NCBI RefSeq assembly: GCF_015100395.1
Contig: NZ_AP022847.1
Span: 1,571,501-1,635,500, forward strand
From: Nitrosophilus alvini
Lineage (GTDB): Bacteria; Campylobacterota; Campylobacteria; Campylobacterales; Nitratiruptoraceae
Direction: 5' to 3'
Length of the DNA: 64,000 bases
Below, one piece after another: positions 10,562 to 55,286 of the stretch; position 1 is the stretch's first letter, and every line of letters begins with the position of its first letter. Position numbers and translations under genes: made by a program. The notes beneath the pieces are model-generated. The model did not search any database, had not been told where the DNA came from, and saw nothing but the letters and a program-made list of their open reading frames with translations.

Positions 10562-11248
10562 TCAAAAATCCTGAATCTTTACAAGTTTCCTGTTTTCCAG
10601 TTTGTAAACACGATCGCACTTTTTTGCGAGATCTAAATCATGAGTAACAAGAAAAAGGGCACCGCCTGACTTTTTTAGATATCCGAAGACCCTTTGCATA
10701 ACTTCGCCTGCGGTCTTTTTATCCAGATTTCCGGTAGGTTCATCCGCAAAAATAATTTTTGGTTTTTTTGTCAGTACCCTCGCTATGGAGACTCTTTGCT
10801 GCTCACCGCCGCTTAATTCGGTAACTTTTTTATGTATAACTTTTTTTATTCCGAAAGAGTCGATAATCTCTTCATCTATCTCTTTTTTTGCAAGCAAAGA
10901 AGCCACTTTTATATTCTCAAAAGCACTAAAACCTTTGAAAAGATAATGAGATTGAAAAATGATGCCTATCTTTTCTCTTCTGATTTCCATAATATCTTTT
11001 TTATGAGAATTATAGATTTTTTTTCCAAAAAGAGTTACTTCACCCTTTTGAGGTTTTAAAAGTGTAGAAAGGATATGCAAAAGAGTCGATTTTCCACTGC
11101 CGCTTACACCTATAACAGCAACACTTTCGCAACTCTTCAACTGCAGTGTTACATTATCGAACAGGGGATAGTCAAATGAGTGGGAGATATTTGAAGCATT
11201 CAAAAGAAGAGAAGAGATCTCTTCTCTCTCTTCTGTTTTTTTTGTCAT
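10562..11248 (-). CDS. ABC transporter ATP-binding protein, LolD/MacB-like
   Basis: 228 aa. Walker A is GVSGSGKST, the Q-loop is IIFQSHYLF, the signature is LSGGEQQR, Walker B is KIIFADEPTGNLD and the switch His is in LVTHD. The EPTGNLDKKTAGEV pattern is typical of the LolD/FtsE/MacB group, which power lipoprotein release or mechanotransmission. No permease is adjacent, so the partner is elsewhere. The gene follows tsf after 1 bp, and I recall the same rpsB-tsf-ATPase order in C. jejuni. Confidence 0.88.
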   Translation of the reverse strand: MTKKTEEREEISSLLLNASNISHSFDYPLFDNVTLQLKSCESVAVIGVSGSGKSTLLHILSTLLKPQKGEVTLFGKKIYNSHKKDIMEIRREKIGIIFQSHYLFKGFSAFENIKVASLLAKKEIDEEIIDSFGIKKVIHKKVTELSGGEQQRVSIARVLTKKPKIIFADEPTGNLDKKTAGEVMQRVFGYLKKSGGALFLVTHDLDLAKKCDRVYKLENRKLVKIQDF

Positions 11249-20973: not shown

Positions 20974-21738
20974 TTATATTCCAAGGCAATCGTTTATACT
21001 ATACAAACCGCTCTCTTGATTTACAAGCCATTTGGCTGCTTTAATCGCACCTTTTGCAAATGTGTCCCTGCTTGTAGCAGTATGATTTAGTTCTATATAC
21101 TCTCCCACGTTATAAAACCCTACTGTATGGCGACCTACTATATCGCCGCCTCTCAGGGCGAAAACACCGATCTCATCTTTGGACCTTTCGCCGATATTGC
21201 CGTTTCTTCCGCTTACTCTTACTTTATCTAGATCAAGACCTCTGCCTCTTGCCGCATATTCGGCAAGTGTCAGAGCCGTTCCGCTCGGAGCATCCTTTTT
21301 ATGCCTGTGGTGCATTTCAACTATTTCGATATCGAAATCAGATAGAGTTTTGGATGTAATCTCCACAAGCTTTTTAAGCAGAGCAATTCCCACCGACATA
21401 TTAGTAGCATACAAAACCGGCATCTTTTTTGAAACTTCGCTTATAAGATTCATCTGATGCTCACTCAATCCCGTTGTGCCTATTACGAGAGGTTTCGGAT
21501 TTTTGAGTACACTCTCAAGCAGAGCTTCGGTACCCTCAGGCAGTGTAAAGTCAATGACAACATCACTGTTTTGCAGCAGAGTCTCAATACTGTTGGTTAT
21601 CAGTGCACCCGGAACTTCAAAATCAATCTCATCTATCACATGAACAGAGCTGACTTTTGCATAATCATCATTTTTCAGATTTTCTATAATCAGTTTTCCG
21701 ACTCTTCCACTTCCGCCGTAAACTCCGACATTGATCAT
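20974..21738 (-). CDS. dapB: 4-hydroxy-tetrahydrodipicolinate reductase
   Basis: 254 aa. It uses NAD(P)H in the lysine/meso-diaminopimelate route. The nucleotide motif [12 protein letters not shown] is at residues 4-15, and the catalytic [14 protein letters not shown] signature is at about residues 142-155. AGGAGAGATA precedes the ATG. It lies 8 bp downstream of trxB, so it is likely in the same transcript. Confidence 0.96.
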
Positions 21739-31368: not shown

Positions 31369-32805
31369 TTAATTAGAACTGCATGATCCGGTATCACATA
31401 CTATATCTACAGTGCAGTCGGCATTGCTGTCAAGTGTCAAAAGATCACCGCTCAGATATGTGTTTCCTGTTGCACATCCCCATCTTCTTCCATCATAATC
31501 CATTATGAGAATTGTATCTGTAGAAGAGCCCGAAGTAGTATATGTATAGTTACTTACACCGTCATCCAACCTATAGCATGTTCCGTTATATGTAAAACTT
31601 TTCGTTCCGCTATTTGTCAAGATGACGGTATAGGCACTACATGATGTACCGCTTCCGCCCGAGGTTGTATTTACTTCAGGATTTACCGTCAGAGTCAGAC
31701 TTTTTGTATAACTGTTCGAACAGTTATCAGTTACCGAAACAGTTATCTGATGAGTTCCGGCAGTACCCTGGGCAAGGTCGCCAGATATCACATTGTCTGT
31801 TGCTGACAGATTTGCCGGAAGGCCGCTTATACTCCAGCTAAAGGGAGTTACTCCTCCTTCTGAGAATATCGTTGTTGTGGGATATGTCTGCCCCTCCTGT
31901 CCAAAAGGAAGGAAAAGGGTCGTTATGTTCAGCGGTTTTGGCAAAACCTTTATATTTCCGCTGTAGTTTTTCGTATCTCCCGCAGCATCCGTAACTGTAG
32001 CCGTAACAGTTAGATTTTGGTCACAAACGTCAAGTTCGCCCGTATTTGTAGCAGTGTAGCAGTTTATCGTTCCGCTGATTGTACCGTCACTGTTGATATT
32101 AAGACCACACTCTGCGCTTCCGCTCCAGCTATAAGGAGCTTTTCCGCCTGTTACTGATAGTTGATAGTAGTAGGGACTGTCCTCTTCACCCTGAGGAAGA
32201 ACCGACGATGTACTTACCTCCAGCGGTTTGCATCCTTCAAGTGACTGAAGCTCTGCTATCGTTACCCATTCTGCTATATCATCATATGCCTCAGGTCTGT
32301 TTATATCACCGGAATAGTTGTCTATATTGTCAACTCCATAGTCGTATATCGATATGTTTGTATCAACTGTTACAGCAAGGTTTCCTGATGTTTGATTGTT
32401 TTGGTTCTCTCCCGCACTCAGAACTATAAAAGCTACATTTTTCACATAGTCGAATGTATTGCATGCTGAATCTTTACAGATTTTAAGTCCCAAACGGTTT
32501 GAGTTTGTGCCGCAAAAGCCTCCGCTTCCTGCAAGAGAAGAATCGTATATATAAAAAAGAGGATTTCCGTATGTATCTTCAAATTTTGGAACAGTAGTTG
32601 AAAACTCTGCAGAATCCGGCAAATATCCGTGCCTTGTAGCATACCCTTTTATAGCCTCTTCGGCACTCTTTACTATCTCTTTGTTCTGTCTTATTTTACT
32701 GTTTTGTATCATAAGTTTGTATGCCGTCATACCGATACCCAAAAGAAGACCGATAATAATCAGCACCATAGAGAGTTCTACAAGGGTAAAAGCTCGTCTG
32801 TTCAT
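31369..32805 (-). CDS. Type IV pilin-like protein with two Ig-like (He_PIG-type) domains
   Basis: 478 aa, far longer than a usual pilin. The prepilin leader MNRRA is followed by FTLVELSMVLIIIGLLLG with Glu at +5. Residues 30-190 hold a pilin head with Cys98, 110 and 115. Two Ig-like repeats follow: about 193-288 (VTGGKAPYSWS...DGTISG) and about 292-375 (SEGGVTPFSWS...VTD). The last 90 residues are Ser/Thr/Gly-rich with several Cys, so disulfides are likely. It has its own promoter and lies apart from the pilus operon 3 kb away. Probably a tip or minor adhesive pilin; this is inference. Confidence 0.85.
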   Translation of the reverse strand: MNRRAFTLVELSMVLIIIGLLLGIGMTAYKLMIQNSKIRQNKEIVKSAEEAIKGYATRHGYLPDSAEFSTTVPKFEDTYGNPLFYIYDSSLAGSGGFCGTNSNRLGLKICKDSACNTFDYVKNVAFIVLSAGENQNNQTSGNLAVTVDTNISIYDYGVDNIDNYSGDINRPEAYDDIAEWVTIAELQSLEGCKPLEVSTSSVLPQGEEDSPYYYQLSVTGGKAPYSWSGSAECGLNINSDGTISGTINCYTATNTGELDVCDQNLTVTATVTDAAGDTKNYSGNIKVLPKPLNITTLFLPFGQEGQTYPTTTIFSEGGVTPFSWSISGLPANLSATDNVISGDLAQGTAGTHQITVSVTDNCSNSYTKSLTLTVNPEVNTTSGGSGTSCSAYTVILTNSGTKSFTYNGTCYRLDDGVSNYTYTTSGSSTDTILIMDYDGRRWGCATGNTYLSGDLLTLDSNADCTVDIVCDTGSCSSN

Positions 32806-51856: not shown

Positions 51857-53755
51857 TTACGGCTCTCCCTTCAGTCTTCTTCCTTCTTTCCGCAATTTCT
51901 CTCTCATCTTTATATAGATATGAAGTATCTCGATGGCAGCAGGAGTTATTCCGCTTATTTCACTTGCAGCAAAAAGAGTTGGTGGTCTGAATTTCTTGAG
52001 TTTCTCTTTCACTTCGTTGCTCAATCCTGAAATCGAGTCTATATCCAGGTCTTCAGGTATTTTTATACTGAGCATCTCTCTCATTTTGTCAATCTGCTCT
52101 TTCTGTTTCTTTATATACTGATGGTATTTTGCTTCTATTAAAATCTGCTCTTTTGCATCATCACTGAACTCTTTTATTTCCGGAGCTATTTTTTCAAGCT
52201 TTTTCATATCAAAGCTTTTTCGTGAGACGATATTTAAAAGATTTGTCTTATCTGTTATTTTGCTCTCATTTATCTCTTCGAGAAACTGGAGAGTCTCTTT
52301 TGTAGGTGTCAAATATCTGTTTTCAAGAATCTCAAGACCTTTTTGTATCTCATCTGCTTTTTTAACCATCTTGAAATATGTCTCTTCATCTATAAGACCA
52401 AACCTGTATCCATACGGCATAAGTCTAAGATCGGCATTGTCTTCTCTTAAAAGAAGCCTGAACTCTGCTCTGCTTGTAAACATCCTGTAAGGCTCTTTTG
52501 TCCCTTTTGTTACAAGATCATCGATCATAACTCCGATATAAGCTTCATCTCTTCTTAAGATAAAAGGTTCCTCCCCCTTTATAGAAAGAGCAGCGTTTAT
52601 TCCGGCCATAAGTCCCTGGGCAGCAGCCTCTTCATAGCCGGTTGTACCGTTTATCTGACCTGCAAGATAGAGCCCTTCTATCTTTTTGGTCTCAAGAGTA
52701 TGTTTAAGTTCGGTCGGATTTACGTAATCATACTCTATTGCATATCCGAATCTGACAATTTCGGCATTTTCCAAACCCTTTACACTTCTTACCATCTCCA
52801 CTTGAACATCGGTGGGCAAAGATGTACTCATGCCGTTTATATAGTATTCGGTAGCTTCAAGTGTCTGCGGCTCAACAAAAATATGGTGTCTCTCTTTCTC
52901 ACGAAATCTAAAAACTTTATCTTCGATACTAGGACAGTATCTGGGTCCCACACCCTCTATCTGACCTGTAAAAAGAGGGGCTCTTTCAAAGTTACTCTCT
53001 ATTATTTCGTGCGTTCTTTCATTTGTATATGTAATAAAGCAGGGGAGCTGAACGGGATCGAAGTTTTTCCTGTCCGTACGAAAACTAAAAGGAATTGGGT
53101 TTTCATCACCTGGCTGTATCTCCATTTTGGAAAAATCGATACTCTTGGCATCAATCCTTGCGCATGTCCCGGTTTTAAGCCTTCCTGTCTCCAAACCCAG
53201 CTTTTTCAGTGACTGGCTTAGTCTGTTGGATGCAAATTCGCCGGCCCTTCCAGCTTCTTGAGTAATATCGCCTATATGAATAACTCCCTTTAAAAAGGTA
53301 CCGGTAGTGATAACTATCTTTTTGGCATGATATATATTTTTGAGATTTGTTATAACGCCGGCAACTCTTCCTTGTTTTACAAGAATCTCATCAACCATCT
53401 CCTGAGCCACATCAAGATTTTCAGTCCCAAGAACGACCGTTCGCATATATATTCTGTATCTATCCATATCTATCTGGGCTCTGCTACCTCTTACGGCTGG
53501 ACCTTTGGAAGCATTCAGTATTCTAAACTGGATTCCGGTTTTATCAGTTGCCAGCCCCATCTGGCCTCCAAGCGCATCAAGCTCTTTTACAAGATGCCCT
53601 TTTGCGAGCCCTCCTATGGCCGGATTGCAGCTCGCCGCTCCAATCTGTTCGGCAAGAATGGTTATCAAAAGTGTCTTCATACCCATTCTGGCACTCGCCA
53701 AAGAGGCCTCTATCCCTGCATGCCCTCCGCCTACAACGATTACATCGTATTTCAT
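51857..53755 (-). CDS. mnmG: tRNA uridine 5-carboxymethylaminomethyl modification enzyme MnmG (GidA)
   Basis: 632 aa. With MnmE it modifies U34 of several tRNAs. FAD motif [19 protein letters not shown] at the start, then [16 protein letters not shown] and [13 protein letters not shown], and the C-terminal helical domain that contacts MnmE. A palindromic promoter lies 28 bp upstream. In C. jejuni I recall mnmG near the petABC genes. Confidence 0.96.
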
Positions 53756-53783
53756 TCATATCCTCTATATTCTTTGATTTGCT

Positions 53784-53797
53784 GATATAATTATATC
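53784..53797. promoter_or_regulatory. Palindromic promoter shared by mnmG and ribE
   Basis: GATATAATTATATC is a perfect 14-bp palindrome. It carries TATAAT on the plus strand (53786-53791) and TATAAT on the minus strand (53790-53795), overlapping by two bases. Predicted starts are near 53798 (toward ribE, leader about 65 nt) and 53783 (toward mnmG, leader about 28 nt). Confidence 0.7.
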
Positions 53798-53862
53798 TAA
53801 GATTGTTTTTCGGTTTTAGCTATGTTTATAATTTAAATAAAATTTTTATAAGAAGGAAGAGC

Positions 53863-54471
53863 TTGTTTACAGGATTGATAAGAGAGATAGCGGAAGTTCG
53901 TGCCTTTGAGAAGAACGTTTTAAAACTGAAAGCAAAATACAGACCCAATGTGGGCGATTCTATAGCGGTAAACGGGGCATGTCTCAGTGTAACCAAAGTA
54001 TATGAAGGCGGATTTGAAGTCGAGCTCTCACATGAGAGCCTGGAAGTTTTGGCGCTTGAAAACTACAAAGACAAAGTTCATATAGAACCGGCCATGAAAC
54101 TTGGCGACAGACTCGAAGGGCATATTATCCAGGGTCATATAGATACGGTGGGGGTTATAGAAAAAATCATAAAAAAACCCGGCGGCTATGATTTTTATAT
54201 AAAAATTCCTCCTCAGTTTATAAAGTTTGTGATACCTAAAGGGAGCATCGCCGTAGAAGGTGTAAGTCTTACCGTAAATGACGTATTTGAAGATAGCTTC
54301 AGATTGACGATTATCCCTCTTACAATGAAAGAGACACTTTTTGGAATATATACTCCCGGAAGAAGAGTAAATATAGAAACGGATATGTTTGCAAGATATC
54401 TGTACTATATGTTCAAAAAAGAGAAGAGTCTGCACTGGAGCGATATAGACAAAATTCAGGCACTCTATTGA
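53863..54471 (+). CDS. ribE: Riboflavin synthase (alpha chain)
   Basis: 202 aa from TTG 53863, with AAGGAAG upstream. The peptide then begins (M)FTGLIREIAEV, the fixed start of riboflavin synthases; the longer ORF start would prepend 20 unneeded residues. Two lumazine-binding repeats (about 1-95 and 96-190) hold GDSIAVNGACLSVT and KGSIAVEGVSLTVND. It condenses two 6,7-dimethyl-8-ribityllumazine molecules. It is followed by thpR. Confidence 0.94.
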   Translation: MFTGLIREIAEVRAFEKNVLKLKAKYRPNVGDSIAVNGACLSVTKVYEGGFEVELSHESLEVLALENYKDKVHIEPAMKLGDRLEGHIIQGHIDTVGVIEKIIKKPGGYDFYIKIPPQFIKFVIPKGSIAVEGVSLTVNDVFEDSFRLTIIPLTMKETLFGIYTPGRRVNIETDMFARYLYYMFKKEKSLHWSDIDKIQALY

Positions 54472-54487
54472 AAAAGGATAAGAGATA

Positions 54488-54985
54488 ATGCGGCTTTTTC
54501 TTGGAAGTTTTGCAACAATTTACAATTATGAGGATATAAAAAATGAGCTATCAAAGTATTTTGAAGGCAAATGGGTTGAACCACAAAACATTCATATGAC
54601 TTTTCATTTTTTCGGCGATATATCCAATCCATCAAAGATTATAGAATCACTTGATGGTATAGAGTATCCAAAAAGAACTTTCAAACTTAAAAGATACGGA
54701 ACGTTCGGCAGACCTCCTAAAGTTCTTTTTGCCGAATGCAAAGATAAAGAGATATACAGACTTTATGAAGATATAGAAAAAAGAGTGGCAATTGCTTCTC
54801 AAAAGCCTTTTATACCCCACGTAACTCTGATGAGGATTAAAAAAACAAACGGAGGAAAATCGTTCCTCAAATATTTCGAAAAGACCAGATACAAAATCCT
54901 CGGAGAAATGAAACTCAGACTCTGCCTTGTAAGCAGCACTCTTACGCCTGAGGGACCTATATACAGAACTATTCATACATTTTAG
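54488..54985 (+). CDS. thpR: RNA 2',3'-cyclic phosphodiesterase (2'-5' RNA ligase family)
   Basis: 165 aa. Two H-x-T motifs are in place: HMTFHFFGDI (near residue 37) and HVTLMRI (near 112), the 2H phosphoesterase pair. Bacterial ThpR opens 2',3'-cyclic phosphates; substrate in the cell is not certain. It lies 16 bp after ribE and just upstream of the cupin gene. Confidence 0.92.
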   Translation: MRLFLGSFATIYNYEDIKNELSKYFEGKWVEPQNIHMTFHFFGDISNPSKIIESLDGIEYPKRTFKLKRYGTFGRPPKVLFAECKDKEIYRLYEDIEKRVAIASQKPFIPHVTLMRIKKTNGGKSFLKYFEKTRYKILGEMKLRLCLVSSTLTPEGPIYRTIHTF

Positions 54986-54992
54986 GAGAATC

Positions 54993-55286
54993 ATGAATAT
55001 CTATGACTTTGAAATACCGCAAAAAGGTGAGATGTTCGACACACTTTTAAGATGTGGCAATGTGGAGATAAAAAGGATAGTGAGCGCAGAGAGTGTCAAA
55101 AGTTCTCTTTATATTCAGGATGAAGATGAGTGGGTTGTGCTTTTGGAGGGAGATGCTGAGCTTGAAATCAAGGGAAAAGCAAAAAAGTTGAAAAAAGGGG
55201 ATACACTATTTATTCCGGCCAGAACTCCCCACAAAGTTACTAAAACTTCAAAAGGGGCTCTCTGGCTTGCAGTTCATATCCACTAA
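54993..55286 (+). CDS. Small cupin-domain protein
   Basis: 97 aa. A single cupin fold: DEDEWVVLLEGDAELEI (first motif, with poor metal residues) and GDTLFIPARTPHKVTKT (second motif, with His). Cupins bind many ligands, so function is not assigned. The start follows AGGAG at the thpR stop. Confidence 0.85.
   Translation: MNIYDFEIPQKGEMFDTLLRCGNVEIKRIVSAESVKSSLYIQDEDEWVVLLEGDAELEIKGKAKKLKKGDTLFIPARTPHKVTKTSKGALWLAVHIH

Follow-up and report, generated by a model that had tools for sequence, protein, structure and literature searches.

A palindromic pair of overlapping -10 elements between mnmG and ribE of Nitrosophilus alvini: a predicted bidirectional promoter core and its recurrence in Campylobacterota

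The mnmG/ribE intergenic region

The window analysed here is a stretch of 64,000 nucleotides from the genome of Nitrosophilus alvini. It contains mnmG and ribE, two divergent genes separated by a gap of 107 bp. The features of this region are the following.

51857..53755, minus strand: mnmG (gidA); TIGR00136 (NCBIfam), 909.6 bits against a cut-off of 524.85
53761-53766, minus strand: Shine-Dalgarno-like AGAGGA of mnmG, found by eye
53783..53791, plus strand: ribE-ward extended -10 TGATATAAT; matrix score 10.7, predicted start 53798-53799
53790..53798, minus strand: mnmG-ward -10 AGATATAAT; matrix score 9.1, predicted start 53783 (A)
53827..53832, plus strand: second candidate ribE-ward -10, TATAAT; matrix score 6.7, predicted start about 53839, leader about 24 nt
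53850-53859, plus strand: Shine-Dalgarno-like AAGAAGGAAG of ribE, from the sequence
53863..54471, plus strand: ribE, riboflavin synthase, with TTG start at 53863; TIGR00187 (NCBIfam), 186.3 bits against a cut-off of 156.6
54488-54985, plus strand: gene for an RNA 2',3'-cyclic phosphodiesterase; TIGR02258 above cut-off
54993-55286, plus strand: small cupin-like gene; cupin matches below cut-off only

The profile query for ribE started at the second codon, and the TTG start was picked from homology and the Shine-Dalgarno-like sequence. The phosphodiesterase and cupin-like genes are probably co-transcribed with ribE, as suggested by the short gaps. No known RNA, FMN riboswitches included, was found in the window by Rfam at the gathering threshold.

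Direct reading of the sequence at 53784-53797 in the gap revealed the perfect palindrome GATATAATTATATC. It holds one TATAAT box on each strand, at 53786-53791 on the plus strand and 53790-53795 on the minus strand, and the two overlap by 2 bp in the central AT (53790-53791), which forms the last two bases of each box. The original prediction had claimed exactly this arrangement, and its coordinates and letters are correct. The 14-mer occurs as a single exact copy in the window and likewise in the 1.81-Mb genome. Perfect 14-bp palindromes are not remarkable as such, with 7 in the window compared to a mean of 5.9 in shuffled sequences. Four perfect 16-bp palindromes are also found in the window (11210-11225, 21323-21338, 31710-31725 and 54191-54206, the last within ribE), compared to a mean of 1.7 and a maximum of 8 in the shuffles.

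The -10 elements and the predicted starts

Scoring of the -10 elements used a matrix built from 236 upstream regions within 464 kb of the N. alvini genome, and the starts were placed by a 7-bp rule from the -10 position. The two arms of the palindrome are the top-scoring sites of their respective strands in the stretch scored. Both strands read GATATAAT, in agreement with the phylum pattern gnTAnaAT, and the plus-strand arm additionally carries a T that completes a TG extension. The predicted divergent starts are 15-16 bp apart. No -35 pair was called at the palindrome, in line with what is expected of the phylum. Inspection by eye for periodic T near -17, -27 and -38 showed upstream T runs on the plus side and no clear ones on the minus side.

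The original prediction had described the boxes as exactly placed for both genes and the site as a clean natural case. The placement fits mnmG, with a predicted leader of about 28 nt. However, the ribE leader would be about 64 nt, and the TATAAT at 53827-53832, absent from that prediction, lies nearer to ribE, so that the case is less clean than supposed. This second box, from which ribE is probably transcribed as well, lies in a block (GCTATGTTTATAAT) that can be aligned with GCTATTTATACAAT in relatives, L016 and L023 among them.

We propose that the palindrome is, in all likelihood, a bidirectional sigma-70 promoter core for mnmG and ribE. RNA polymerase with the housekeeping sigma factor would bind the palindrome facing either gene, with a single polymerase bound at any moment, and would read the extended -10 (gnTAnaAT) on either strand, with the overlapping AT as the end of both boxes. 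Transcription of mnmG would start leftward near 53783 and that of ribE rightward near 53798-53799, ribE probably being started from the -10 at 53827-53832 as well. With this overlap, neither box nor its G/TG extension would have to depart from the consensus to accommodate the other, an arrangement that may suit a phylum without -35 elements. The analysis shows the sequence, its agreement with the motif, its repeated occurrence in relatives and the enrichment of its register in divergent gaps; from these we infer the binding, the start sites, the exclusion of one polymerase by the other and how much each -10 contributes.

The locus in Nitratiruptoraceae

In all 22 genomes of the family, N. alvini included, ribE was found with mnmG adjacent and divergent. 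An exact ribE-ward TATAAT is present in 20 of the 22 gaps, and TATAATTATA in 7 of them from three genera (the window, L017, L018, L019, L020, L022 and L024). L019 carries the exact 14-mer in a gap of only 55 bp, 26 and 29 nt from the two gene starts, where it is the best-scoring site on each strand. In G000, G018 and G020, the TATAATTATA at mnmG/ribE is the sole GNTATAATTATANC of each genome. Most of the other 15 gaps keep the ribE-ward box together with a TTTATAC(A/T)ATA block nearer to ribE, and toward mnmG they score poorly, with 4.4 to 5.7 for 13 of the 15 and 1.4 for L030. Therefore, the mnmG arm is not conserved across the family. Conservation in relatives, which had been suggested as a check, is thus partial: the element is kept in the seven gaps, but the family does not share one architecture. 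We considered and rejected a strictly conserved palindrome in the phylum, as 15 of 298 genomes contain the exact 14-mer compared to 5 for the reversed control. Of the other 14 exact sites, nine lie in genomes among the ribE matches listed, and none of these nine is at ribE.

The family comparison bears on two alternatives. The palindrome might serve mainly mnmG, with ribE transcribed mainly from 53827-53832 and the ribE-ward arm weak or idle. The second box has the more usual leader length, scores 6.7 and lies in surroundings that align with a block in relatives. However, the ribE-ward arm of the palindrome outscores it and carries the TG extension, and it is the exact ribE-ward TATAAT that is kept in nearly all gaps of the family, whereas the mnmG-ward arm is not. 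We consider this division of labour unlikely.

Less probable still is a single real ribE-ward -10 in AT-rich DNA whose mirror half arose by chance, with mnmG started elsewhere. It would agree with the absence of the mirror half from most family genomes and with shuffles of the gap, 10 of 100 of which yielded an overlapping -10 pair (d = 1 or d = 4 as defined below, threshold 5). On the other hand, dinucleotide shuffles of the 107-bp gap gave GNTATAATTATANC in only 3 of 20000 cases, TATAATTATA arising in 40 of 5000. In addition, no stronger mnmG-ward -10 exists in the stretch scored, where the next best reaches 5.5, and the palindrome recurs at mnmG/ribE in three genera, although related genomes are not independent.

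Recurrence of the element and its register

GNTATAATTATANC was found at 28 sites compared to 7 for the reversed pattern (23 genomes). Of the 24 sites that were placed, 20 elsewhere and 4 at mnmG/ribE, divergent gaps hold 12 and ORFs 8, while 3 are tandem and 1 is convergent; divergent gaps make up 1.7% of the sampled N. alvini DNA (8068/464000 bases). Among the genes next to the divergent sites are lpxB and greA, rpmB and rpe, and dnaX. N. alvini itself has another TATAATTATA between a HIT-domain gene and pheS.

The shift between two boxes is given here as d, where d = 4 is the register at mnmG/ribE and d = 1 the 18-bp form known from Escherichia coli and Salmonella. At threshold 6, the 125 divergent gaps of five genomes contained 17 pairs at d = 4 compared to 3.28 in shuffles, which makes it the most frequent register between -45 and 45, while the tandem gaps of the same genomes contained 9 compared to 6.1. 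In four held-out genomes, 75 divergent gaps gave 11 compared to 2.88, a count reached by none of 60 shuffles; these 11 sites lie in 8 gaps, some of them in one AT-rich gap. The most GC-rich held-out genome, G160, had no d = 4 sites in its divergent gaps. Other held-out gaps showed 7 compared to 5.83 (tandem) and 2 compared to 1.47 (convergent), and coding DNA of G000 showed 3 compared to 7.67. All other registers in divergent gaps were also raised, 2.88-fold in the first set and 2.20-fold in the held-out set, because these gaps are rich in -10 elements; therefore, the excess specific to d = 4 is less than 2-fold. The d = 4 register is thus moderately enriched in the divergent gaps of the nine sampled genomes.

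A separate arrangement was seen in the same data. Back-to-back pairs of the form ATTATAnc-N8-gnTATAAT (d = -18), with predicted starts 37 bp apart, numbered 13 compared to 0.35 in shuffles of the first five genomes, which are mostly Nitratiruptoraceae; examples include L093:12438-12520, L105:10432-10548 and L110:5363-5581. The held-out four genomes showed this pair only weakly (2 compared to 0.57).

The original prediction had held that a symmetric -10 works in both directions. At mnmG/ribE it has good support from the sequence through the gnTAnaAT arms, the relatives that keep the palindrome and the enrichment of the register; the plausible second ribE promoter and the 15 family gaps without TATAATTATA speak against it.

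The full 16-mer and the compact gaps of one family

The full 16-mer TGNTANAATTNTANCA occurs at 188 sites compared to 24 for the reversed control (81 genomes). The N. alvini site lacks the right-hand CA and is outside this count. Five genomes of the family f5, probably Nautiliaceae, account for 66 sites compared to 3 reversed, leaving 122 compared to 21 without them. Of the f5 sites, 35 of 66 were placed, and 27 of these are divergent, 7 inside ORFs and 1 tandem. Divergent positions also account for 11 of 16 placed sites in family f1 and 12 of 30 in a phylum sample, whereas the reversed control gave 4 of 21, with 15 of 21 inside ORFs; the placed 16-mer and control sites are non-random samples.

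In 16 of the 35 placed f5 sites, no more than 30 nt separate the palindrome centre from either start codon, the distance often being about 21 nt, and 11 of these 16 compact gaps have exactly one -10 site per strand, both being those of the palindrome (gene starts from a simple gene caller, the counts of 16 and 11 tallied by eye). Several f5 loci (L299, L301, L302, L305 and L307) show near-symmetric divergent gaps of about 40 bp, which read start codon, CCTTTTT, palindrome, AAAAAGG, start codon. Unrelated genes flank the compact gaps, for example FliL-like and MlaE-like genes at L301.

Operators typically show perfect dyad symmetry, and the palindrome might accordingly be the operator of a dimeric regulator with the -10 elements elsewhere. 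However, both halves match the -10 consensus of the phylum, and the recurring palindrome leaves the same positions free as a -10 does. In the 11 compact f5 gaps, moreover, the palindrome holds the sole -10-like sites, so that no room is left for a promoter elsewhere. We therefore regard a pure operator as very improbable; operator and promoter roles could coexist.

The mnmG/ribE pair outside the family

We compared 43 loci from other families (L038-L080), consisting of the 3 best matches and 40 picked across families among the matches listed of the 298 genomes. mnmG and ribE are adjacent and divergent in 17 of the 43 and not adjacent in 26. Among seven additional named loci, the pair is adjacent in L081, and L082 is cut by the contig end. 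In family f7, the pair is adjacent and divergent in 11 of 13 loci, and all 11 gaps contain TATNATA, as in the 18-bp form, although this motif is short and some of the gaps are long and AT-rich. Based on the family and the 43 loci, the mnmG/ribE pair often has a common small promoter region whose geometry differs.

Individual gaps illustrate other arrangements. An odd palindrome in the 18-bp form, GGTATTATACC or GGTATGATACC, is present in the gaps of L044, L047, L048 and L080 (f7), which also resemble one another in an upstream block that reads TTAGCTTCT or TTGCTTCT. The gap of L073 (family f4) has two facing TGCTATAAT at d = 13 (TGCTATAATTAGCGAAATTATAGCA), with predicted starts about 6 bp apart.

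MnmG uses FAD and RibE makes riboflavin, and the original prediction had tied the tRNA modification gene to FAD supply through the shared promoter. Coupling of this kind as the purpose of the promoter would agree with the adjacency of the pair throughout the family, but we reject it as scarcely credible, because the element also lies between unrelated genes (lpxB/greA, rpmB/rpe, dnaX, HIT-domain gene/pheS and fliL-like/mlaE-like genes); the pair is adjacent in a minority of the other-family loci, the window has no known flavin-sensing RNA, and strong activation in one direction can repress the opposite direction in E. coli (PMC12825309).

Comparison with known bidirectional promoters

Bidirectional promoters of bacteria were reportedly first described in a 2021 paper. 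Like the bidirectional promoters of E. coli and Salmonella (PMC12825309, PMC10268837), the palindrome has overlapping -10 elements on opposite strands, a short symmetric stretch and divergent genes. Its predicted spacing, calculated from inferred starts, is inside the range of 7-25 bp given by these authors (PMC12825309, PMC10268837). It differs from the common E. coli spacings of 18, 10 and 23 bp (PMC12825309), and "15 bp" is absent from the main text of that paper. In the 18-bp form, -7T and -11A are reciprocally paired (PMC10268837); in the palindrome, by contrast, -7 of the plus strand is 53791 and -11 of the minus strand is 53794. A further difference from the E. coli and Salmonella form is that both boxes of the palindrome can be perfect, with extensions and without a -35. 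This is possible at d = 4 because the common AT reads identically on both strands and the extensions fall outside the overlap, whereas at d = 1 the A at -9 of one box clashes with the opposite box.

In Campylobacter jejuni, gnTAnaAT is found 4-8 nt upstream of 948 of 992 mapped starts, with no -35 (PMC3847290). Both arms of the palindrome agree with the gnTAnaAT box of this Campylobacterota sigma-70 promoter. PMC3847290 treats promoters singly, and the word "divergent" is absent from its main text. Neither the d = 4 register nor a link between mnmG and ribE was found in the literature searched, which included passages of PMC12825309, PMC10268837, PMC3847290, PMC7728183, PMC11539149 and PMC5217627. 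The predicted promoter is of a known kind, and no description of its register was found in that literature.

A proposed compact promoter design in Campylobacterota

The mnmG/ribE palindrome very probably belongs to a compact type of promoter seen repeatedly across Campylobacterota. It is an even question whether Campylobacterota have a bidirectional promoter class of their own, consisting of a self-complementary double extended -10, TGnTAnAATTnTAnCA, that runs from start site to start site. In such a class, the TG of one promoter would be the CA initiator of its partner on the other strand, 16 bp might be a complete core for two genes, one family (probably Nautiliaceae) would have entire divergent gaps reduced to about 40 bp, and mnmG/ribE of N. 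alvini would be a near-perfect member. A core of 16 bp could suffice on this class reading since Campylobacterota use no -35.

By the 7-bp rule, the last A of TGnTAnAATTnTAnCA is the right-hand +1, and therefore the TG on one strand is the CA (-1/+1) on the other. A double role as extension and initiator would be expected to give an excess of TG and CA at the flanks. Among 28 sites counted by eye, TG was present on the left in 10 and CA on the right in 9, showing no excess over the matrix expectation of about 0.35 (0.60 x 0.59). The double role is thus a reading of the structure only.

A promoter core common to two genes need not imply a common function, and the wider design is of more interest than the mnmG/ribE case. 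If the class is real, it would be a minimal promoter of natural origin that serves two genes, and the extended -10 without a -35 would provide a simple rule for why one overlap register is preferred in this phylum to the ones usual in E. coli.
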